A stretch of 22,809 nt of DNA from a virus: the IMG/VR virus record IMGVR_UViG_3300042987_000580, positions 1 through 22,809 of that record, one strand, 5' to 3'. The notes beneath the pieces are model-generated. The model worked only from the letters and a program-made list of their open reading frames with translations, did not search any database and was not told the origin of the DNA. Made by a program: the position numbers and the translations under genes. Below are positions 8,701 through 22,809 of the stretch, piece by piece. Each line of letters starts with the position of its first letter. Position 1 is the stretch's first letter.

Positions 8701-9277
8701 CAGATATTCCAATCAAGGGTTGGTCAACACCCTGCATTGTAATTTCATTAGAAGGGATGATTACAGGGTTTCCTATATTCTCAGGATTCCAATAACCCAT
8801 AGGATCTATAACAGTTCCATCTTGACTAATAGTCTTAGGTCTGAAATCTAGTCCTTCTTGATAGTATTTCATCTCCTGTCCATTCTGTGCACTAGCCTTG
8901 GTCTTCTTAGCATATGGACCATTACTAGGAGCAGGGTTGATTGTACGTGCGTACATCATTCCTGTAGCACCAGGAAGAGATCCACCCATAGCAAACTGTC
9001 CACCCCATGCAGGACTATAGTTACGTCCTTTGGTGTTATATGCCCATCCTTTAAATCCAGGAGGTAGGGTTACATTAGAAACATTAGCATTAGGTTTCTT
9101 TCCGTAGTTATCTTGTTTCTTTTGTCTTAATATACCACCTTCTTCAGCTTTGTAAGGCTTAGCCCCACCAGCAATAGCTCCAAAGAACTTACGCTGTTTC
9201 TCTGTAAGAGGATTTCCATGCACGCTTTTATCACGTAGGATTTCTTTTGCTTTTTCAGATGTTAGTTTCTTTGCCAT
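5726..9277 (-). CDS. Probable cargo/ejection protein with glycine zipper and recurrent short motifs (1183 aa)
   Basis: The N terminus has HGNPLTEKQRKFFGAIAGG (residues 20-38), a motif I recognise from virion proteins of crAss-like and other Bacteroidota phages; no enzyme function is known to me. Residues ~478-511 are a small-residue-rich hydrophobic stretch with GxxxG spacing (GTAAGTLLGGPVGGIIGGAL), like glycine zippers of membrane-inserting ejection proteins. Around 640-680 is a FRGQSHDESDGKGNTGIGI ... VEVERGE segment resembling a recurrent phage virion module. Residues ~710-800 and ~1035-1110 look helical. A short motif built on K-G/N-G ... K-A ... G recurs at 219, 249, 428, 809 and 1161. 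The start codon shares one base with the stop of the 288 aa gene (TAATG), implying translational coupling. It follows the muzzle gene, as packaged cargo genes do in crAss-like phages. Cargo is an inference; a maturation scaffold is an alternative. Confidence 0.8.
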   Translation of the reverse strand: MAKKLTSEKAKEILRDKSVHGNPLTEKQRKFFGAIAGGAKPYKAEEGGILRQKKQDNYGKKPNANVSNVTLPPGFKGWAYNTKGRNYSPAWGGQFAMGGSLPGATGMMYARTINPAPSNGPYAKKTKASAQNGQEMKYYQEGLDFRPKTISQDGTVIDPMGYWNPENIGNPVIIPSNEITMQGVDQPLIGISDTGDVQYMQPGEDYMFDGNYVTEYPMAKGGISVNEADAQPIKKLDQLLNFTNYNTMAKNGKGLKKAQRGDTIGTGGLPRIQIPTMEKLKGGMPSKTIKPSATPSATNAGMTNALPFLQAATDVFGGLQMLGQQRNALQEAIQQEKLTGVFAQAAASRPQQYFQNQYVRPEDLIFQPEQMSPSYGVGTNVLAQDGTVIRNNIGGTPTEIQNIYNPGTMYTDLGYEPLNDSNKVKAFKKGGKIKQAKLGNQNWMQDTAFGKAMMNQGGGDILQSITGAITGEPDAGSKIGKGIGTAAGTLLGGPVGGIIGGALGEVAGDIFDPTEDKIRQSKRLTNRNVGNIVGQTTGLDIQSINRANMQDGGETSPYKWVSHTWQPQVITTFGEYKVKDLLKPPKDADMLRAGGHLKEYTPPSAAAMSTERPAMQMGGELQTHWGGYAEPMSYNPFLPEGGETIMFRGQSHDESDGKGNTGIGITYGDNPVEVERGEPAVKLQDGTSGESNLTVFGNIKITNAFADMLADSKAKGKKFKTYVADLSKQENKQNKLIDKSIDQLDSLDVQSSFDKLALGTLQANLEGANAKLKDLADKKINAAALQNAINDTKEEELLDVTDEGDVLARKGASIPKAQGGRSISPADYNYLIKLYNEAKAQGRGDKVALFQKEFSRIAPDIATQVLSEYDVTAYGKAKGFPKTDVRSNIDEIFGPRTERYKALLDANFRSRPETGGLPSSLRKLPPITLPKPSPTPTEAKKADVIPPAKTDLNIASFLNQALQYLRPSDVESLDPNQLIGEMYALSQNQVEPVYAQKYIPELSTPVDISLQDILNENQAAYNATQRLVGYNPEALASLNAQKYAANQKILGEETRLNIIERRRVADENRNLLNQAKLQNLQILERQADKQAMALSKTKATTQAALNSIASKYAQNKLDNRTLAVYENMYNYRYDPNFRLQNMQMAQFNIPTVGSTTQTKTAKGGKSVKKLNLNSSVVKALKNI

Positions 9278-10143
9278 TACTTGTAAGAGATTTGGGCAGG
9301 TGTAATAATAAATTGGCTTACTAGATGCACATCAGACTTATTGTCCAATATGTGTCTTACCTTCAGATCTTTAGCTCTTAGAGGTTCCTTCTTGAAGGAT
9401 CTCTTACCATAGTCCATATTAGCTTGGTTCACCACCTTATCCAAAGATAGTGATTCACAAGTGGTTAGGAACAGTGGGATGGATTTATTCTTCACCAGTG
9501 ACCAGAAGGTGTTATACTGGTAGAAGTTATCACTCTTAGTAAATGTAATTGTTTTACTCTCAGTGTTGTATATAGGATACTTTAAGTATTCGTTGAGGTT
9601 GTTGATGGGCTTTGGAACCAGTTCAAGCACACCTGTGCTTTGCTGACCGTTGTATAATACAGCTTTGTTAAACCATTCATTGTCAACCTCAATCCTATCG
9701 TTATCATTAAATACACCAGTAGTAGATAAAAAGTACCTATAAGCCTTGGTGTAGTCTTTAACAGATTGAAGAATCTCATCATAATAGGAATAGCTGAACG
9801 GATACTCAATAATATAGGGTTCGATGTTTCCATAAAACTTGTTGTAATTCACCACATCTGTCAAGTGTCTCCATACACAAGAGCTAAGCTTTTGTGTAAA
9901 CGTGAGGGTCACTTGCTCATTAGGTGTCACCTCAGAGATGGGAAAATTGATAGTTTTCTTACAGGTGCCCACCGACTGAATAATAATCACTGTAGCATCA
10001 TCATCTACACTATAGCTCACTCCTTCTATTAGCACACTCTTGGGCACATTTGTAGCTATAACATTTCCAAGGTTGTCAGAAATATTAAAGGGCCCAGATT
10101 TGGGAGAAGCCTTTGTGAGTTTTATGTATACTATTTGTGACAT
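9277..10143 (-). CDS. Virion protein with N-terminal GPFN domain (288 aa)
   Basis: Residues ~4-72 form a beta-rich domain (IVYIKLT ... SGPFNISD ... TCKKTINFPI) that aligns with almost the whole 85 aa protein encoded at 19237-19494. The remaining ~210 residues are a separate part rich in Tyr, Phe and Asn, containing TFWSLVKNKSIPLFLTTCE and, near the end, DYGKRSFKKEPLRAKDLKVR; I recall similar sequence next to the muzzle gene in related phages but cannot name it. There is no poly-Thr tail, signal peptide or membrane segment. The gene starts 12 nt after the muzzle gene and its stop overlaps the start of the cargo gene, so it is expressed with the tail proteins. The likely role is a tail- or muzzle-associated structural protein with the N-terminal domain as a binding module; this is inferred from position. 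Confidence 0.75.
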   Translation of the reverse strand: MSQIVYIKLTKASPKSGPFNISDNLGNVIATNVPKSVLIEGVSYSVDDDATVIIIQSVGTCKKTINFPISEVTPNEQVTLTFTQKLSSCVWRHLTDVVNYNKFYGNIEPYIIEYPFSYSYYDEILQSVKDYTKAYRYFLSTTGVFNDNDRIEVDNEWFNKAVLYNGQQSTGVLELVPKPINNLNEYLKYPIYNTESKTITFTKSDNFYQYNTFWSLVKNKSIPLFLTTCESLSLDKVVNQANMDYGKRSFKKEPLRAKDLKVRHILDNKSDVHLVSQFIITPAQISYK

Positions 10144-10155
10144 CTATTATAAAGT

Positions 10156-13100
10156 TTACAAAGGTGGAAGCGTTGTTGTAGTGGTGGTACCACATGTATT
10201 TCCACAATAAGCACCCTGTGTAGCAGTTCCAAATCCAAATGTAAATGTTACACTACCCTCAACAGCACATAGTATATTATAACTTCCATCAACACCTATG
10301 CTATATGTTTGTGTAAATCCTTGACAATCAATCCATTGGAATGTAGCTCCTAGCTCAGAAGTGACAGTGTATTCATAACAATCATCACAACTAGGAGCTA
10401 ACGTAGTGGTGGTGGTTGTTGTACACTCTTCACAATCTGAATCTTGTGTACAAGGTGTTCCACATAGCGTAATAATCACTCCAGGATCAGAATAAGGAAC
10501 TATCTGTGTGCTAACACATATGTTGATAACTTGTCCTGCTTCTACAGGAGTGTAAGATAGCTGACTAGCACCACACTTGTAAGAAGCTACAAGGTGAGTG
10601 ATTTCATTAGAGTTGTATACAACATAACACTCACAAGGATAGGCAGTTGTTGTTGTTGTGGTTGTGCTGGTGCTAGTGGTGGTGGTTGTGGTTATTTCAC
10701 AAGCCTCACCCTCTAGGTCACAACCAGTGAAAGCTGTTGTGGTGGTAGTTGTAGTGATGCATCCTGAACCAACTAATGTTACATTTAGTCCTTTAGCTGC
10801 AGCATATATCTCATCTCCACATACACAAACTATTTGTGTTTCACCACCTGCAATAGGAGTGCTGTTCTGTGGTTGATTGTTGCAATCTATATAGTCATAG
10901 TAGACTGTCTCAGAAGATTGATTCTCAACAGAATATGTAGTGCACTCACACTCAAATTGTGTTGTTGTAGTGGTGGTTGTATTAGGAACAGGATTACCCA
11001 CCACAGCCTCAAAGTCAGCACAGCAATCATTCACTCCTGAATAGAAGAAGTTGTTCTCAGCTATATAGAAGTTAGGAATGTAGCTATGGAAGCTTATCCA
11101 ACTCTTAGTGTTGAAGTTGAAAGACAGGGTCCAGCTCTTATTACAGAAGTATTCTGAGTCTGTCAGATACACCTGCTTTCTAATAATCTCTGTGCCATCA
11201 CAGCATTCCACCTCTTCTTCTAGATAGAAGTTGAAGTCTGTGTCATCATAAACAATATTATTCAGCTTAGGGATATAGTCAAGCTTGGTAATGATGACAC
11301 GGTCAAACTTGCTATCATACACACCATGGAGTCCTACACCATTGAAATGGTTGTCTACATCCACATTAGGGAAATAACGCAATATTTCAAAAGCTAAATG
11401 GTCTGTAAAGAACCTGTTCATTCCTGATCCAAATGCTGACAAGTCTTGCACCTGATTACCAGCAATTAGGAACACCTGTCCACGCTTAGCATCTATTGTT
11501 ATCTGTCCTTGTGGTATCTTCAGAAGCATCTTGTTTTGAGAGCCCACATATCCTAAATCAGTTTCTGCAAAGTCAATAGGAGGAGCACTTGTAAACAAAG
11601 AAGGATTACCTATATAGGCAGCCTGTGGATTGCTAGTGTTGATAGTGAGAAGCGTGTTGTATAACAAGCTTTTGTTCTCAAAACGAGCTAGAATAGCCTT
11701 GTTCTGTATACCATCTAAGCTCACTAGAGGTCCATAGTTCTGAGGGAAGTCAAAGAAAGAAGAAGCTCTGTAAATCAACCAGTTATTTGCATTTGGTGAT
11801 GTAGTGAGTTCTTGGCTATCAGAGTAGATGGTTCTGAATGGGAAGTTGGTGTAACATACACTCTTCCAATCATAAGGAAGGTGAGTGAATGTATTTTCTC
11901 TGTTTTGCTTAGAAAATGTAGTGTTATAGTAATAGGTGTTATCCTGAGCAATAGACACATAGTCTTCTTGCACCCAATCATCAGGAATACCTGTGCTCAC
12001 ATGAGGCCAGAAGTCACCTTCTCTATTATTAAATGCCTGACGAAGGTCAACGTTGTAAGAGCTCTCACAATAGAAATAGGGGATGCCATACGCAAACAAA
12101 TACATCTTACCATCATAATAAGTTCTACCAGGACTGGTAATAGGAGTTTGACTATTAGGGCAGTCTAGGTTATTAGCCTTAATGGATATGAAGTTTGTAA
12201 GTGTTTGTGGTCCAGCAATTGCTGTTGTAAGAATAGAACGTCCTGAATGCCAGTATACAGGATAGGCTACATTTCCTATTTCATCATAGAATATGTCACT
12301 ATCATCAGGAGCATTCACACGGTTGTCTATAAAGAAAGGTAGTTTGGTCTTAAAGGCAAACTTGCTGATGAATGTATCTCCTCCAAAGAATGTAGCTACA
12401 ACAGGACCTGTAAGAGGAGTGATGTCTCTTTGGAATCCTGTATCCACTGTGTCATAAGAATACATCTGTCCATACTGATTGACAAATATGTTCTTAAGAG
12501 ATCCATAGTAGGAGATAACACTTATATACTGTTCTTGAGCAGGTGTACCACATGTTCCAGACTCACCAAGAGTTGTTCTAGACCTATCATTTACAAGTCC
12601 TGAGATGGTGGGAGTTTGGTTAGGGAAAGGAAGAGCTGGTCTGTTTGACTTAGTCTTTAGGTAAACAGAACTCTCTCTGCTCCAGTTATTTACATTCTTA
12701 TCATCACCCACTCCCTGTACACCAGGAATTAGATATTGTTTTAATTCTAGCTCACGCTGCTTCACTCCTAATCCATTGTTAATCAAGTTACTATAGTCAT
12801 AGCTGGCTATAGAATTGTAGGAATAAGCGTAGTTGCGTCTAGTGATACCATTTATGTAGATGGTAAGATAGGCTTGGTAGGCAGCAAATAATGCTGATGC
12901 ATTATAGTCAATGGTGATGGTTGCTATGTTATTTGCACTATTTAGTGCATCTTGTTGAGCCTCAGAACTTAGCAATCTGTACATAGCGTTTTTATTCACC
13001 TGTACAAAGTGAGCTTTTCCAGCACCATAGATTACATTCTCCAGTTTTAGAACACCTCCTAAGAAAGGTTGACCAAAGGATGTTTCTGGAGAGTTGAATA

Positions 13101-15618
13101 CATGTCTGTATTTAGCTCCATTCTCATCAAATCCTTCTAGGTTATCTGGGTTACAAAGACTAACACCTACAGAGTTTATAAATTCCACTTTGAGTTTAGT
13201 GGCATCATCAACTGTACTATCAGCATATGTAGGTGGTGAAAGTGAAGCAATATCAAAAGTGTAATCACCCACGCCAGAAGGAACTACAAAAGCGTATTGA
13301 TTGTTTATATCAAGAGGCTTATTTAAGAATAAATCACAACATGTAATTGTAGGATTGAGAGCGCAGTATTTAGTCCATCCATCAATATCAGTGGACATAC
13401 CATATCCTGTAGGAGCAGGAAGAACATTTCCTTGATTTAAACCACATCTAGAAATTGGCCAAACTAGTCTAAGTGAAACTGTTTGTGATATGCTGAGTTT
13501 GTTTACCGTAATCTTATATCTGTTATAAGTGTTTGATCCCATCGCTCCTTTAGCACCTCCATTAAACTTTGGTGCAGGATAGTCTAAAGCACAAAGTTTG
13601 ATGATGGTGTTCACCTCTGATGGAAGAATGGTTCTACTAGCTGGTTCTCCTGTGTAGCAATCAATGTAATCGATTGTACCAGGTGCTGTAGGGTAGATGC
13701 TAAAGTTTCTACATATAGATGTATTACTTGTTGCAGCAAGAGGAATGGTGTAAGCATTGCTCTTTTCAAGTAAGAATGGATCTTGTCTTAGGTCATTGTA
13801 AGGATAGTTGGGGAAGTAGTATTCTGTACCCTCTCTATCATACTTACCTACGTTTCTAAGGATACCCTTAGCTACAATAGATTTGTTTGTGCTTCTATCA
13901 CCACGTATAATCTTAAAGCCAGCTATCTCACTTTTTTGTTCAGCAGTGAGATTGGAAGAGTTGATTAGAGATTGTACCTGTTGTACATCTATTCTTACAC
14001 CCAGTGGGAATACAGCATCTTTCTGCATCACCATTGAGTTTTCTCCTGTAAACAGAGCAGACTCAAATATAGGGCTCACCAGTACATCTGGGAACTTGTG
14101 GTGTCTAATCTTCTGACCAGCTAAGTTTCCCCACAATTCTTCATTACAAGGGTATTCTTCTGTAGATTCCCAATAGCTAAACTCACCATTCTGGTAAGGT
14201 CCTTTGTAATCTACAGCAGGAGAATATCCTGGAGAGAATCCTGTAACAGTGGCTGTGTTGTATATCTTCCAATAGGGACTTGTTCCTGCAACAGGATCTT
14301 CAGGATCACCTATGAAGTCATCATTTGTTGTAGGAACAGGGAATAAATCATTAGCATTAGCAAGTCTTCCTGGGATGTGAAATCCATCAGTTTGTTTACC
14401 GTTCTTAAGAAGGAACACTATCTCAAATGCATACACCTCATCTCTTAAATAGCCTCTGAGGTTGGTGGCATTAAACTCATCCGCATAGGTTTCTGTATTA
14501 GGAATCCTATAAGTTTCCCATTGAAGAGTGACACCACTAGCAATTTGCTGGTAGTTGATTCTTTCTATGGAGGTGAGTTGATCCCACACTAATACATCAC
14601 GTACAGCTGTAACATCTTGAGCCACCTCGTAATAAGGAAACTTCTCAAAGATGTCATTCACTGTTAGGCGAATATCAGTTTTGTTTTGACCTGTGTAAGT
14701 GATCACCTGTGTTAGGGTGTCAATGAAGTAGGTGCCTATAAGCTCAACAGAGGTGATACCATTTATGGTTTTAATCACTGCTATGTTGAAATGCTGATAG
14801 AGTCCAGATCCTTCTAAGTTGCTGACAGTGAGTTCAATAGACCTACCTACAGGATAGTTGAAATTGGGAGTGGTAAGACTTGGATCAGCAACAGGAGTGG
14901 GATTGGTCACTGAGTAATAGGACGTAAGAGGATTACCATTAGCATCACAATACTGGATGGCAAATTGGTATGTACCAGCAATAAGCTCACCCCCTGTAGT
15001 GATGTTAGTCACTTCAAGCTGGGGAACCTGGAAGTTAGGTTGTACATTTAATCCGTTACAATCTATTTGGTCACTGTATATAGGGTCACAAGCTGGTGTT
15101 CCTGATATAAGAATATAGGGAAGGTTCTCAGGATTTAGGTCAATATATCTTCTGGGATTGAGACCATCTGTCCAATACACTTCTGTATTACACTCTGTGA
15201 TTCTGTGGACAGCCTTGTGAATAGGATGGTCGATGTTAAAATTGAGACAAGGAGCATTTACATATGTATGATAGATGCAGTCGTTATTATCCATATATCC
15301 AATCTCAGAACCACCTGTGTCAGGATTGGTGATAAAGAATACATGTTTATTTCTTTCTGGAATGAAATGTTCACCAATAAGCACATATCCATCAGGGAAG
15401 CTAAGACAGAACACATTCCCTGGCTCATTCTGATAGTTAACAGAATTTGAGTCAAAGTTCTCAACAGCAGCATTCAATGCATACGTTAGCTGACCTTTGG
15501 GAATCTGCGTAACAGATTGATCCATGTTAAGGCCAACGGTAGCATTGTTAGATTCTTGGACAACATTACTTCTGTTGACACCAAGAATGTTTTTTATTTG
15601 TTCTAATTCATCTGCCAT
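10156..15618 (-). CDS. Tail 'muzzle'/stabilisation protein, P22 gp10-like, with Thr-linked Cys-rich C-terminal repeats (1820 aa)
   Basis: Residues ~15-190 match my memory of the crAss-like stabilisation protein: a GLNMDQSVTQIPKGQLTYAL segment, then LSFPDGYVLIGEHF, then VYWTDGLNPRRYIDL, the last resembling the beta-propeller-like start of P22 gp10 relatives. The middle (~200-1540) is beta-rich, Asn/Tyr/Thr-rich and without membrane segments, as expected for a large tail-tip protein. From ~1547 the protein changes character: five poly-Thr blocks (1547-1553, 1622-1628, 1643-1658, 1733-1739, 1811-1816) separate three Cys-containing domains, and it ends LPPL. In crAss-like phages the muzzle forms the outer end of the short tail; repeats at the C terminus could be exposed or reach the cell surface, which is inference. 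It lies immediately after the gp4-like ring gene, the canonical order. Confidence 0.85.
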   Translation of the reverse strand: MADELEQIKNILGVNRSNVVQESNNATVGLNMDQSVTQIPKGQLTYALNAAVENFDSNSVNYQNEPGNVFCLSFPDGYVLIGEHFIPERNKHVFFITNPDTGGSEIGYMDNNDCIYHTYVNAPCLNFNIDHPIHKAVHRITECNTEVYWTDGLNPRRYIDLNPENLPYILISGTPACDPIYSDQIDCNGLNVQPNFQVPQLEVTNITTGGELIAGTYQFAIQYCDANGNPLTSYYSVTNPTPVADPSLTTPNFNYPVGRSIELTVSNLEGSGLYQHFNIAVIKTINGITSVELIGTYFIDTLTQVITYTGQNKTDIRLTVNDIFEKFPYYEVAQDVTAVRDVLVWDQLTSIERINYQQIASGVTLQWETYRIPNTETYADEFNATNLRGYLRDEVYAFEIVFLLKNGKQTDGFHIPGRLANANDLFPVPTTNDDFIGDPEDPVAGTSPYWKIYNTATVTGFSPGYSPAVDYKGPYQNGEFSYWESTEEYPCNEELWGNLAGQKIRHHKFPDVLVSPIFESALFTGENSMVMQKDAVFPLGVRIDVQQVQSLINSSNLTAEQKSEIAGFKIIRGDRSTNKSIVAKGILRNVGKYDREGTEYYFPNYPYNDLRQDPFLLEKSNAYTIPLAATSNTSICRNFSIYPTAPGTIDYIDCYTGEPASRTILPSEVNTIIKLCALDYPAPKFNGGAKGAMGSNTYNRYKITVNKLSISQTVSLRLVWPISRCGLNQGNVLPAPTGYGMSTDIDGWTKYCALNPTITCCDLFLNKPLDINNQYAFVVPSGVGDYTFDIASLSPPTYADSTVDDATKLKVEFINSVGVSLCNPDNLEGFDENGAKYRHVFNSPETSFGQPFLGGVLKLENVIYGAGKAHFVQVNKNAMYRLLSSEAQQDALNSANNIATITIDYNASALFAAYQAYLTIYINGITRRNYAYSYNSIASYDYSNLINNGLGVKQRELELKQYLIPGVQGVGDDKNVNNWSRESSVYLKTKSNRPALPFPNQTPTISGLVNDRSRTTLGESGTCGTPAQEQYISVISYYGSLKNIFVNQYGQMYSYDTVDTGFQRDITPLTGPVVATFFGGDTFISKFAFKTKLPFFIDNRVNAPDDSDIFYDEIGNVAYPVYWHSGRSILTTAIAGPQTLTNFISIKANNLDCPNSQTPITSPGRTYYDGKMYLFAYGIPYFYCESSYNVDLRQAFNNREGDFWPHVSTGIPDDWVQEDYVSIAQDNTYYYNTTFSKQNRENTFTHLPYDWKSVCYTNFPFRTIYSDSQELTTSPNANNWLIYRASSFFDFPQNYGPLVSLDGIQNKAILARFENKSLLYNTLLTINTSNPQAAYIGNPSLFTSAPPIDFAETDLGYVGSQNKMLLKIPQGQITIDAKRGQVFLIAGNQVQDLSAFGSGMNRFFTDHLAFEILRYFPNVDVDNHFNGVGLHGVYDSKFDRVIITKLDYIPKLNNIVYDDTDFNFYLEEEVECCDGTEIIRKQVYLTDSEYFCNKSWTLSFNFNTKSWISFHSYIPNFYIAENNFFYSGVNDCCADFEAVVGNPVPNTTTTTTTQFECECTTYSVENQSSETVYYDYIDCNNQPQNSTPIAGGETQIVCVCGDEIYAAAKGLNVTLVGSGCITTTTTTTAFTGCDLEGEACEITTTTTTSTSTTTTTTTAYPCECYVVYNSNEITHLVASYKCGASQLSYTPVEAGQVINICVSTQIVPYSDPGVIITLCGTPCTQDSDCEECTTTTTTTLAPSCDDCYEYTVTSELGATFQWIDCQGFTQTYSIGVDGSYNILCAVEGSVTFTFGFGTATQGAYCGNTCGTTTTTTLPPL
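10171..10980 (-). repeat. Three Cys-rich protein repeats joined by poly-Thr linkers (C terminus of the muzzle protein)
   Basis: Poly-Thr blocks lie at 10960-10980, 10735-10755, 10645-10692, 10402-10422 and 10171-10188. Three domains of ~68-74 residues lie between them: residues 1554-1621, 1659-1732 and 1743-1810. Each starts with CxC or CxxC, then Tyr/Val residues, a Y/W-x-D/K-C element, a Gly followed by I/V-x-C, and a C-terminal Gly/Cys element before the next Thr block. A short insert (AFTGCDLEGEACEI) separates two Thr blocks. Thr codons are mixed (ACT, ACC, ACA), so protein-level selection is more likely than recent slippage alone. Confidence 0.75.
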
Positions 15619-17079: not shown

Positions 17080-17807
17080 TAATTGGTTGGTTTAGTATTG
17101 GGGGCCTGACCATCAATACCTTCTGCTGTCATATCTGTCTTGAGTGAGAAATATGTAGCCAGAAGCTTTTGAGAGGTGAGCTCCAATACCTGCTTCTCCA
17201 GATAACCTGGAAGAGCAAACTCCTTGTCTAGTGGATTAACACATAGTTGTTCCACTGTATATTGAGGAGTACCGCAACCACAAGCTGGATAGAGTATTTC
17301 ATTAGGAACATCCTCCTCAAACAGAGCCACTAGTCTGATAGCCTGTAGAAGTGGATTGCTCACATATAGATAGCCATTGCTTATCCAATAATACTCTTCC
17401 TTCTTAATGATGGGAAGTTTTAGAAGATTTATATACCTATTGATGGTTATTTCCTTCAGCTTTTTTCCTTGTCCACTCATTGCATTAATTGAGTAGACAC
17501 CCTGTATTACATATTGGTAATTACCCTCAGAAATACGAGGAAGTTTGTATTTGCTCCTAGCCACTGAGCAAGGGTCAACATATTCACAACATTCGGAAAT
17601 AGGAACTTCTATCATCTCCAGACAAGGAATAGTGGTGAACAGAGTGTCTGTTGCCCACAACTTTCTGAGGTTGGTTTCCCTTTTGAGAAGCAAAAGAGAA
17701 TTGTTCCTAATTTCAGAAGCAATAGCCCTGTCCGTAATCAAGCTATCTGTAGACAGAAGCTTGTGGGCAGAGCGTACATCTGAAACTAATTTCCTTAACG
17801 TGGCCAT
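17079..17807 (-). CDS. Conserved connector-region structural protein (242 aa)
   Basis: I recognise this as a conserved type of protein from the head-tail connector block of crAss-like phages, though no biochemical function is known to me. Recognisable parts are an N-terminal helical region (KLLSTDSLITDRAIASEI), LWATDTLFTTIPCLEMIEVP at 50-69, ECCEYVDPC at 72-80 and a short YWISNGYLYVSNP turn near 140-152. It contains several cysteines, including the ECC...C cluster and CGC at 176-178. No signal peptide or membrane segment is evident. It overlaps both neighbours by one base (TAATG at each end), so translation is probably coupled to the phosphoesterase before it and the IHF-like gene after it. 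A tail or collar ring subunit is the most likely role, by position. Confidence 0.7.
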   Translation of the reverse strand: MATLRKLVSDVRSAHKLLSTDSLITDRAIASEIRNNSLLLLKRETNLRKLWATDTLFTTIPCLEMIEVPISECCEYVDPCSVARSKYKLPRISEGNYQYVIQGVYSINAMSGQGKKLKEITINRYINLLKLPIIKKEEYYWISNGYLYVSNPLLQAIRLVALFEEDVPNEILYPACGCGTPQYTVEQLCVNPLDKEFALPGYLEKQVLELTSQKLLATYFSLKTDMTAEGIDGQAPNTKPTN

Positions 17808-19057
17808 TATATATACTGTTTGAAAATGTTTGTCATTCCATTAATTTGGTCTAGAAGAAACCCAGTCACCTCACCTTTGGAAATCGTGTATCCATTTTTA
17901 TCATCCCAACTACTCTTTGCTGTAGAGAAAGCTGGGAGCTGATAAAACTTGATACCATTGAAATCTAAGCTTAGCTCATGATGTTTGTCTCCTGTGAAGA
18001 TGTAGAAATGATTGTGGTCTGACCAATCACTCTTATATTCCATAGGGAACAAGCTAGCAAGCTTAGCAGGTTTTAGAGCATCTCCGTGGTTGAACATCAT
18101 AGCTGAATGTCCATAACTCACATACTTTCTATATCTAGGAGAGATGTCAAAAACCACACGCTCTTCATGTCTAAAATAAGTTTGTAACCAGCTAGCCAAA
18201 TGCCAGCCTACAAACTCATCATGATTACCAGCTACAAATATCACCTCAACATCTATTCCTTTTTGAAGAAGTAAGTTGATAACACTCACCTCGTGCTCAC
18301 ATATAGCTTGAAAAGCACTGTGATAGGAAAGGATGTTTTGTTGTGGTGTACCTTTTGTAGTTGTGTTGGTGAACTCGCTGTTAAACTCGTCTGACCCAAT
18401 AATGTATTTAATATCTGTTAGATTGTTAGCTAGACAGGCTTGGTTTAGGATGATTTCCACCTTCTGGATGAAGTCACCAAAACGTTCTTCTATACTATTG
18501 TTTCCTTCTATGTCCAGTTTGTTTAGGTGGGAGTCTTGCTTGTTTATGATGAGACAAGCATCTCTTTTACCCAATTCAAATTTAGGAGCTACTATCTCAG
18601 GGGAGCAGGGTTCATAAGTTTCTAGGAAGGCAATAAAGCTATCCTGAAATACCTGCTCATCTTTCTTTTTACCCAACCATGCTTTCACTTGGTAGTGAGG
18701 CTGGTCAGCATTTCCCCAGTAGTTTTGGACGTATTTAGTTATTTCCCACTTGTCCGTATCTATCTTACATTTCTCAATAAGCTCGTCTAAGCTCTTGATT
18801 TCTTCCTTAGAGTTGAACACCACCTCACCAGTTCCCTTTTGTACATCTTCAAAGAACCTTACCACTTGCTCTTCTAGGTCTCCAATGTAGTTACCAACTT
18901 CTGCCTCTTCTTGTGCTATTTGTGAGCCTCGCAGCTCTTTCATCAATTCATCCACCTCATTTTCTGTAATGTTGAGTTTGTCTGCATAGAACTTTTTGCT
19001 CTTCTTCCAGTGGAGCATTTGCTCCAGCTGTTGCAGAAGGGATTGATTTTCAGGCAT
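17807..19057 (-). CDS. Calcineurin-like metallophosphoesterase with N-terminal HTH-like region (416 aa)
   Basis: The metal-binding motifs of the calcineurin-like (Mre11/PP) superfamily appear in order: DSH at 175-177, GSDE around 221-224, GNHDE at 277-281, HGD at 324-326 and GDKHHE at 356-361. These bind a two-metal centre and cleave phosphoester bonds; whether the substrate is DNA, RNA or a small molecule is unknown. Residues ~14-43 (KKFYADKLNITENEVDEL and around) look like a helix-turn-helix, and ~60-130 is a separate domain with TDKWEITKYVQNYWG. The gene opens an operon of connector and tail proteins from its own promoter, so it may act in packaging, DNA-end processing or host DNA degradation. 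The ATG at 19057 follows the promoter by about 29 nt; its stop shares one base with the next start. Motif support for the fold is strong; the role is inference. Confidence 0.85.
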   Translation of the reverse strand: MPENQSLLQQLEQMLHWKKSKKFYADKLNITENEVDELMKELRGSQIAQEEAEVGNYIGDLEEQVVRFFEDVQKGTGEVVFNSKEEIKSLDELIEKCKIDTDKWEITKYVQNYWGNADQPHYQVKAWLGKKKDEQVFQDSFIAFLETYEPCSPEIVAPKFELGKRDACLIINKQDSHLNKLDIEGNNSIEERFGDFIQKVEIILNQACLANNLTDIKYIIGSDEFNSEFTNTTTKGTPQQNILSYHSAFQAICEHEVSVINLLLQKGIDVEVIFVAGNHDEFVGWHLASWLQTYFRHEERVVFDISPRYRKYVSYGHSAMMFNHGDALKPAKLASLFPMEYKSDWSDHNHFYIFTGDKHHELSLDFNGIKFYQLPAFSTAKSSWDDKNGYTISKGEVTGFLLDQINGMTNIFKQYI

Positions 19058-19236: not shown

Positions 19237-19494
19237 TTATAATATCGTAGTGGTGGTTGTAGTGGTACATTCCACTATGGTGATATCAATATAATTTGTA
19301 CATAAGGGAGGATTGTCAGACATCACCCTAATGATAGTGGTTCCATTTGGAACTAATACACTTGTATACCCAGCTAACAGAGCTGCTTTAGAAACACCTG
19401 TTTCAAAGGCAGATGTATACCCATCAACATCTGAATAGAGATTGAAGGGTCCTGTGTCAGATCCTGCTGTGGTGAGAGTTATTACTACTATCAT
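19237..19494 (-). CDS. Small Thr-tailed protein with GPFN domain (85 aa)
   Basis: Most of the protein is one beta-rich domain (IVVITLTTAG ... TGPFNLYSD ... VSKAALLAGY ... TTIIRV ... CTNYIDITI) that aligns with residues ~4-72 of the 288 aa virion protein. It ends VEC, seven threonines, Ile-Leu, the same tail found on four other proteins in the window. There is no signal peptide or membrane segment. Its ATG overlaps the stop of the 103 aa gene (ATGA), indicating coupled translation, and it is the last gene before the double hairpin. I infer a small virion component, possibly a decoration or tail-tip part; no function is known to me. Confidence 0.75.
   Translation of the reverse strand: MIVVITLTTAGSDTGPFNLYSDVDGYTSAFETGVSKAALLAGYTSVLVPNGTTIIRVMSDNPPLCTNYIDITIVECTTTTTTTIL
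19246..19266 (-). repeat. Poly-Thr tract of the 85 aa protein
   Basis: Seven consecutive Thr codons using ACC, ACT, ACA and ACG, preceded directly by Cys and followed by Ile-Leu-stop. Confidence 0.9.
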
Positions 19495-19802
19495 AACAGA
19501 GTGGTGGTAGTGGTTGTTGTTGGTAGACAGCCATTTACAAGCTCACAGAACTGAACGTGGAATGTGGGATTTACACGAATAAGAATGAGAATAGCGTTCA
19601 GAATGTATTCTGGGCATATCTTAGAATCTATCTTCTCTAGAGCAATATCAAGGGAATCTCCTGTATTTACACCAGAGCATGGAAGGTTGTTTCCGTTGTA
19701 TACAATTTGACTAGCATCTAGACACACTGGAGGACAAGGACCCATTCCTTCTGGGTATACAGGCCCTGTCTGATAACAGGGCATTCCTGGTAAACAAGCC
19801 AT
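19491..19802 (-). CDS. Small Thr-tailed protein with TGDSL module (103 aa)
   Basis: The N-terminal ~27 residues are Cys/Pro-rich (CLPGMPC, then GPCPPVC). Residues ~31-52 (SQIVYNGNNLPCSGVNTGDS plus Leu) align with residues ~19-40 of the 381 aa collar protein (sharing Q, V, Y, G, N, P, G and TGDSL). A short hydrophobic helical stretch follows (EYILNAILILIRV, about 65-77). The protein ends GCLP, seven threonines, Leu-Leu. The TGDSL-type segment is common near the bases of phage fibre proteins, so this may be an anchoring module without its fibre. It lies between the collar gene (11 nt gap) and the 85 aa gene (ATGA overlap). Function unknown; a virion surface protein is inferred. Confidence 0.72.
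   Translation of the reverse strand: MACLPGMPCYQTGPVYPEGMGPCPPVCLDASQIVYNGNNLPCSGVNTGDSLDIALEKIDSKICPEYILNAILILIRVNPTFHVQFCELVNGCLPTTTTTTTLL
19500..19520 (-). repeat. Poly-Thr tract of the 103 aa protein
   Basis: Seven consecutive Thr codons, preceded by Cys-Leu-Pro and followed by Leu-Leu-stop. Confidence 0.9.
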
Positions 19803-22131: not shown

Positions 22132-22809
22132 TTACGGAATCAAGGTAGATGTAGTAGTAGTAGTTGGCCACACAGTGGTAGTAGTAGATGTAGTAGTAAC
22201 ACAATCATTATCAGCCACTACAGTTCCTAATGCAGCCTCAAGGATGGCTTGAAGAGCAGTTTCTTCACCAGATCCTTTTTCAACAGCAATGATCACTCTG
22301 CTATCCTCCATGATGTAGTCACCCCATTGGTAAACAGTTTTGTCATACTCGTTGAAACGGATGTTGAAGGTGTTGTAAGTTGTACCATCACTCACCCAGC
22401 TTTCAAAGTTCTCATTGTAGCCATTCATTCTGTACAAATGCTTCAAGTAACCTGCTTGATAGCTGTAGAAGTTCTTCTCCAATTGTGCAATCTCTGCAGA
22501 TGTACCGCTTGGATAAGAAGCACGCTGAATAACAGTGGCATCAGCTACAATGTTACAAGCATCAGCAACGATGAAGTCAGCTGTAGTTGCAGGACCATTG
22601 TACACGAATGTACGGAACCACATACGGTCATACTCCCAAGGGAATGCTGCAACATCACAAGGCTGTCCGTACTTAGTAAGAGGCTTACCAGTGATACGTA
22701 AGATAGCGTTCTGATCATTTCCAATACGTTGGAACTGATAGAATGTGTTGAAAGAGATGTTGTCAGGGTTGTTTCCAGGAGCTTGTAATTCTAATTGATA
22801 GATGAACTG
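22132..22809 (-). CDS. Probable major capsid protein, C-terminal 225 residues, with Thr-rich tail; gene continues off the right edge
   Basis: The frame is open to the right edge, so the gene starts outside the window; an internal ATG at 22623 is not the true start. Visible sequence includes FYQFQRIGNDQNAILRITGK, a GQPCDVAAFPWEYDRMWFRT segment and YQWGDYIMEDSRVIIAVEKG. I associate these with the crAss-like major capsid protein, but no HK97 signature can be proven from this fragment. Support also comes from position (before the connector genes), the following attenuator, and codon use: arginine is mostly CGT (6 of 8 counted), unlike neighbouring genes where AGA looks more common, as expected for a highly expressed protein. 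The oddity is the C terminus: DCV, TTTSTTTT, VWP, TTTTTST, LIP. An abundant head-decoration protein is the main alternative. Confidence 0.6.
   Translation of the reverse strand, partial: QFIYQLELQAPGNNPDNISFNTFYQFQRIGNDQNAILRITGKPLTKYGQPCDVAAFPWEYDRMWFRTFVYNGPATTADFIVADACNIVADATVIQRASYPSGTSAEIAQLEKNFYSYQAGYLKHLYRMNGYNENFESWVSDGTTYNTFNIRFNEYDKTVYQWGDYIMEDSRVIIAVEKGSGEETALQAILEAALGTVVADNDCVTTTSTTTTVWPTTTTTSTLIP
22144..22197 (-). repeat. Thr-rich tail of the capsid-like protein
   Basis: Two Thr/Ser runs (TTTSTTTT and TTTTTST) separated by Val-Trp-Pro, preceded by Cys-Val and followed by Leu-Ile-Pro-stop. Codons are mainly ACT with some ACA and ACC. Confidence 0.88.

Follow-up and report, generated by a model that had tools for sequence, protein, structure and literature searches.

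The muzzle gene of this uncultured crAss-like virus was split into two open reading frames (ORFs), and the first of the two chains ended in an array of small Cys-rich domains on poly-Thr linkers. The domains belonged to one family with one predicted fold, were used in several virion genes and were turned over as whole modules among relatives. The array is probably a modular, exchangeable surface-binding appendage of the virion displayed on the muzzle, for which a binding role is inferred. By alignment, it was the C-terminus of the polypeptide and not of the muzzle fold. The window, that is, the whole stretch of viral DNA analysed (22,809 nucleotides), contained the following features, with residues numbered along the first muzzle chain.

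10156–15618, minus strand: muzzle N-terminal chain, 1820 aa (PF25731 crAss_MUZ, E 2.5e-35; phrog_37948, E 8.6e-105)
within 10156–15618, minus strand: parts of this chain, body (residues 1–1545) and poly-Thr/Cys-domain array (1546–1820)
13537–13716, minus strand: fourth copy of the domain family, inside the body, residues about 635–694 (E 1.3e-5 with a profile built without body copies)
10960–10980, minus strand: Thr7 linker 1, residues 1547–1553, directly after the body (AlphaFold2 pLDDT <50)
10756–10959, minus strand: Cys domain R1, residues 1554–1621 (AlphaFold2 mean pLDDT 89, six strands; profile E 1.6e-17)
10645–10755, minus strand: Thr linkers 2–4, residues 1622–1628, 1643–1648 and 1652–1658, flanking the short unit
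10699–10722, minus strand: short unit CDLEGEAC, residues 1633–1640 (segment cluster A, 65 segments)
10423–10644, minus strand: Cys domain R2, residues 1659–1732 (profile E 1.2e-16; strand pLDDT about 86–93)
10402–10422, minus strand: Thr7 linker 5, residues 1733–1739
10189–10392, minus strand: Cys domain R3, residues 1743–1810 (profile E 1.3e-13; pLDDT about 91–96)
10159–10188, minus strand: terminal Thr6-LPPL, residues 1811–1820 (Thr run 1811–1816)
9277–10143, minus strand: muzzle C-terminal chain, 288 aa (phrog_15100 positions 1588–1781 of 1783, E 9.5e-12)
19491–19802, minus strand: fibre-like anchor gene ending in Thr7-LL, an empty slot (in distant homologues, the same anchor is followed by long Thr/Cys extensions)
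19237–19494, minus strand: a further small anchor gene, an empty slot with Thr7-IL at its end (orthologues in relatives L003, L011 and L017 carry a Cys domain)

The PF25731 match of the first ORF scored 122.4 bits against a Pfam cut-off of 27. A ring gene (CrAss_Ring_1, PF24228, E 3.1e-10) adjoined this ORF upstream and was itself preceded by a phrog_12177 gene, and the gene order of crAss-like muzzles, with an IHF-like gene and a ring protein upstream, was found in the window. In Bacteroides phage crAss001, the muzzle protein gp44 (PF25731) is of the same family and occupies the same place after the ring protein, with gp43 (ring) and gp42 (HU/IHF-like) before it. The body and the downstream ORF of the window jointly aligned along gp44, which differs in that it is one chain, has a tight turn at the position of the cut and is without the array. 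A DNA-repair-type exonuclease gene (17807–19057; phrog_704, E 3.6e-48) lay amid the virion structural genes. Furthermore, an ORF leaving the window edge (22132–22809) ended in a Thr/Ser tract (TTTSTTTTVWPTTTTTSTLIP) and may be a further slot.

The order of the array was Thr7, R1, Thr7, the short Cys unit, Thr6, Thr7, R2, Thr7, R3, Thr6 and LPPL. The tail contained 22 Cys in 276 residues versus 25 in the 1545 residues of the body. The original prediction, made from this sequence alone, had described three Cys-containing repeats on poly-Thr linkers, which were confirmed with exact coordinates and residues; its list of R1, R2 and R3 stood, and the short Cys unit between R1 and R2 had been missed. 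Short units of the form C-x-L-x-G-x-A (CDLEGEA, CTLVGTA and CNLAGTA) were present in the tails of most relatives, mostly as the first module after the cut, and this unit was the sole Cys module in the tails of L020, L021, L024, L051, L064 and L075.

The relationship among R1, R2 and R3 was evaluated by pairwise alignment against 2000 shuffles. The R1/R2 score was above all shuffles and the R1/R3 score above all but 4, whereas the R2/R3 alignment alone was not significant (218 of 2000 shuffles). The evidence for the repeats therefore comes from the family as a whole. An iterated profile seeded with R1–R3 recovered all three, at the E values listed above, together with about 150 other copies, and an alignment of 62 divergent copies showed a Y-x-x-C-x-G core and four conserved Cys, two of them invariant and two nearly so. 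In the AlphaFold2 model of the whole tail, confident strands were present in R1, R2 and R3, and most of the linkers had pLDDT values below 50; the domains therefore look like rigid beads on disordered linkers. The comparison of the three folds rested on strand number and spacing, which were similar in each, and the pLDDT was high. By profile and model, R1–R3 are one family, each confidently predicted as a small all-beta domain, with disordered linkers in between. Unrelated folds for the three segments, which would have spoken against the repeats, were not predicted, and the proposal of small divergent domains on flexible linkers was supported.

The family had no counterpart among named domains in the searches performed. 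A Pfam search of the Cys domain gave no credible family match, a sequence search of the PDB matched no chain, and Foldseek against the PDB found nothing significant (best E 0.26 for R1 and 0.041 for the whole tail). Thus, no carbohydrate-binding or Ig-like fold, for which the original prediction had suggested a search, was recovered, and the domain was not assigned to a known Ig-like or carbohydrate-binding type by sequence or structure match. The fold search in BFVD gave two significant matches, both to unannotated proteins of uncultured Caudovirales. The muzzle tail alone had no tblastn match to named phages, and the Cys domain was absent from the five named phage genomes searched (Lbo-JY46, phi17:2, csAssE-Sib, crAss001 and FpV4). 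Single-domain scans for close relatives returned mostly muzzle contigs already in the set, and L103 and L104 were left out.

The position of the array on the muzzle was explored through the downstream ORF. The C-terminal 200 or so residues of the muzzle were encoded by this separate ORF, 12 bases after the first, and the pair combined spanned the muzzle fold. Residues 88–288 of the downstream ORF matched the C-terminal ~200 aa of single-chain muzzles, namely the muzzle ends of Leptolyngbya phage Lbo-JY46 (32%), Flavobacterium phage FpV4 (27%) and the human-faecal contig MT837925 by tblastn, and that of csAssE by blastp. In these four single-chain muzzles, merely a short loop connects the two halves. 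Residues 1 to about 80 were an added module related to the head module of poly-Thr fibre-like genes. The downstream gene was separate in every relative in which it was visible. A programmed frameshift between the muzzle and the next ORF was rejected, as the gap varied and whole extra genes were present in some relatives.

By alignment, the cut corresponded to the turn FKDG/KMWEQ of crAss001 gp44, near residues 1238–1241. According to the published boundaries, gp44 residues after 1021 are outside the IG2 and crass domains (PMC10172136) and therefore in the propeller or ring-joining parts; our reading is that the turn is a propeller hairpin. Since the last ~200 residues were in a separate gene, the chain would be cut at this propeller-region turn, with the array on the new C-terminus. 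The placement of the repeats at the tip of the muzzle, as had been proposed, was thus not supported as stated; the attachment mapped by alignment to a propeller-region turn made by gene fission. A second cut, near residue 1467 (about 75 residues upstream), was found in L036, L038, L040, L041, L043, L044, L061 and L072, and the muzzle of these doubly cut relatives was encoded by three genes. At the second cut, the first chain ended in a Thr tract (L043 and L072) or a Fib_succ_major domain (L036). Plain stop-then-ATG boundaries were present at the L036, L043 and L072 junctions, and a frameshift was rejected there also.

In the literature that we searched, neither a split muzzle nor Thr-linked Cys domains on a muzzle were described, and nothing relevant on poly-threonine linkers in phages was found. 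The crAss001 cryo-EM paper attributes variation in muzzle length only to insertions in the IG2 and crass domains (PMC10172136), in agreement with the statement in the original prediction that reported crAss-like muzzles are not described with such a tail. Phage Lbo-JY46 (L079, PP438436.1) has a recorded cyanobacterial host, and its crAss-like muzzle was 36% identical to that of the window. To our knowledge, crAss-like phages are otherwise tied to Bacteroidota.

The domain family also occurred in other parts of the virion genes. The body copy of the window was located in an insertion by alignment to Lbo-JY46 and in the crass domain by alignment to gp44. The body-copy-free profile, applied to all muzzle bodies, gave 11 matches at E<=1e-3, one of which was a separate insertion in L078, and zero matches in 132 reversed sequences. 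Further copies were found in fibre-like genes 4–5 kb upstream of the muzzle. One fibre domain of L019 shared 76% identity with a muzzle-tail domain of L008, versus 30 and 38% with the muzzle-tail domains of L019 itself. The best account of this pattern is that domains moved between genes or that old paralogues were lost differentially.

The tails of relatives were compared to describe the turnover of the array. The 56 complete tails ranged from 10 to 632 residues and contained many module types. The same architecture was shared by 7/7 pairs at a body identity of at least 98%, 11/15 at 90–98%, 10/43 at 80–90%, 19/164 at 70–80% and 15/888 at 60–70%; these counts hinge on how the tails were cut (by a simple rule at Thr/Ser runs) and grouped (by single-linkage clustering), and they come from non-independent relatives. 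The variation observed was the gain and loss of whole modules. The bodies of L011 and L047 were 96.6% identical, yet one whole domain differed, with Thr tracts at its bounds. Runs of exactly seven Thr were by far the commonest (117 of the 271 runs of four or more), and in 33 of the 56 tails no more than 6 residues followed a final Thr run. The Cys domains diverged faster than the muzzle body: the identity between the window and L055 was 86% for the body, 65% for R2 and 53% for R3. In the close relatives L004 and L012, only a Thr stub of 10–13 residues was in the place of the array. Hence, at least some phages can do without the array.

Alternative tail modules included Fib_succ_major (PF09603, E 7.8e-37) and a DUF5122 beta-propeller; the latter (E 2.2e-35) was located among many Thr tracts in the muzzle tail of L042 (L042:12582-14498). 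The lectin-like Fib_succ_major domain was at a neighbouring site, on the muzzle chain at the second cut, in relatives such as L036; it was absent from the window, and no sequence relation between it and the Cys domain was found. The original prediction had suggested that copy number could vary between relatives, and both copy number and content differed strongly; where the repeats were lacking, other modules or a bare Thr stub occupied the same place. In the record of L022, the domain match at the muzzle-tail end (G003:C1:90909-91103) contained one in-frame TAA, probably because the match runs past the stop.

Several explanations of the array were weighed against these results. The array might bind a target other than the host receptor, such as mucus, extracellular matrix, particles or biofilm, and hold the phages near their hosts. 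This would suit the varied domain types, the dispensability and the presence of the domains in several virion genes; moreover, gut phages have modular Ig-like/BACON adhesins that bind epithelium and raise retention (PMC13370021). However, host contact is a better fit for the fast divergence and for attachment to the tail-end protein, close to where DNA is ejected, and general adhesion is considered unlikely. A structural role is less likely still; here the domains would make the muzzle stiffer or lock it, shield the split hairpin or disulfide-link the subunits, and their diversity would reflect neutral drift in a loop that is tolerated. The copy inside the muzzle body, the disulfides that stabilise the crAss001 tail (PMC10172136) and the tolerance of insertions at the hairpin turn are in its favour, but the array was missing or replaced by unrelated modules in relatives, rigidity would not pass through disordered linkers, and the same domains were on fibre-like genes.

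Indels at Thr tracts, bare stubs and the wide range of lengths would also be expected of a selfish or accidental expansion, in which Thr-codon tracts recombine and gather coding fragments that are functionless in most copies. Nevertheless, the frames stayed open throughout, the Cys and core motifs were conserved across the 62 copies and confident folds were retained, which makes such an expansion very improbable. A surface-binding appendage thus remains the preferred reading of the array. For crAss001, the muzzle has been proposed to touch the cell and to gate ejection (PMC10172136). For the array, cell contact is not assured, because its attachment maps to the propeller region and not to the distal crass domain.

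A mechanism for the appendage can be proposed as follows. The ancestral crAss-like muzzle was one chain, and in the clade of the window its gene is cut at the short propeller-region turn, so that the first gene encodes the body and the second the final ~200 residues. The two chains would presumably re-pair in the virion. The new C-terminus bears a string of apparently rigid, probably disulfide-bonded beta domains of ~65 residues on disordered Thr6-8 linkers. With three domains per chain, a muzzle hexamer like that of crAss001 would show 6 x 3 = 18 domains. Domains are gained and lost, and are probably exchanged, also with the upstream fibre-like genes, with the joints in Thr tracts; judging from the positions of the breaks, the repeated ACN codons of these tracts would offer frame-preserving homology for recombination. 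Whole-module exchange would be the source of diversity. Most likely, the domains bind weakly and multivalently to variable glycans or proteins on the host cell surface, or to the surrounding matrix, and such contacts would precede the opening of the muzzle. In a wider reading, which is put forward tentatively as nearly an even call, several virion proteins, including the gatekeeper propeller cut at hairpin turns (one cut in the window, two in L036, L038, L040, L041, L043 and L072), would share one phage-wide pool of Cys-rich plug-in modules. The modules would move between slots by recombination at Thr-codon tracts and diversify host contact without a retroelement.

Ig-like domains on virions have been proposed to keep phages where their hosts are. 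The domains of the window resemble the Ig-like/BACON virion adhesins (PMC13370021) in being small beta domains that are repeated, exchanged and diverse between relatives. They differ in having 4 core Cys, no Pfam match and Thr6-8 linkers, and in being fused to the muzzle, whereas the Ig-like/BACON adhesins are fused to capsid or fibres. The combination of a conserved anchor with exchangeable terminal domains is shared with the domain shuffling of phage receptor-binding proteins (PMC10684548); in the window, by contrast, two genes encode the gatekeeper protein that serves as the anchor, and the muzzle body, the muzzle tail and the fibre-like genes share a single set of modules. Accessory adhesin domains on virions are known already; the array of the window adds an unnamed domain family and a split-propeller attachment site.

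The unnamed domain family is now supplied for annotation. The split genes indicate that two or three genes can jointly encode a core tail protein. Furthermore, if the gatekeeper of this clade carries exchangeable binding domains, removal of a single genetic module would make it possible to test how recognition is linked to the opening of the gate.
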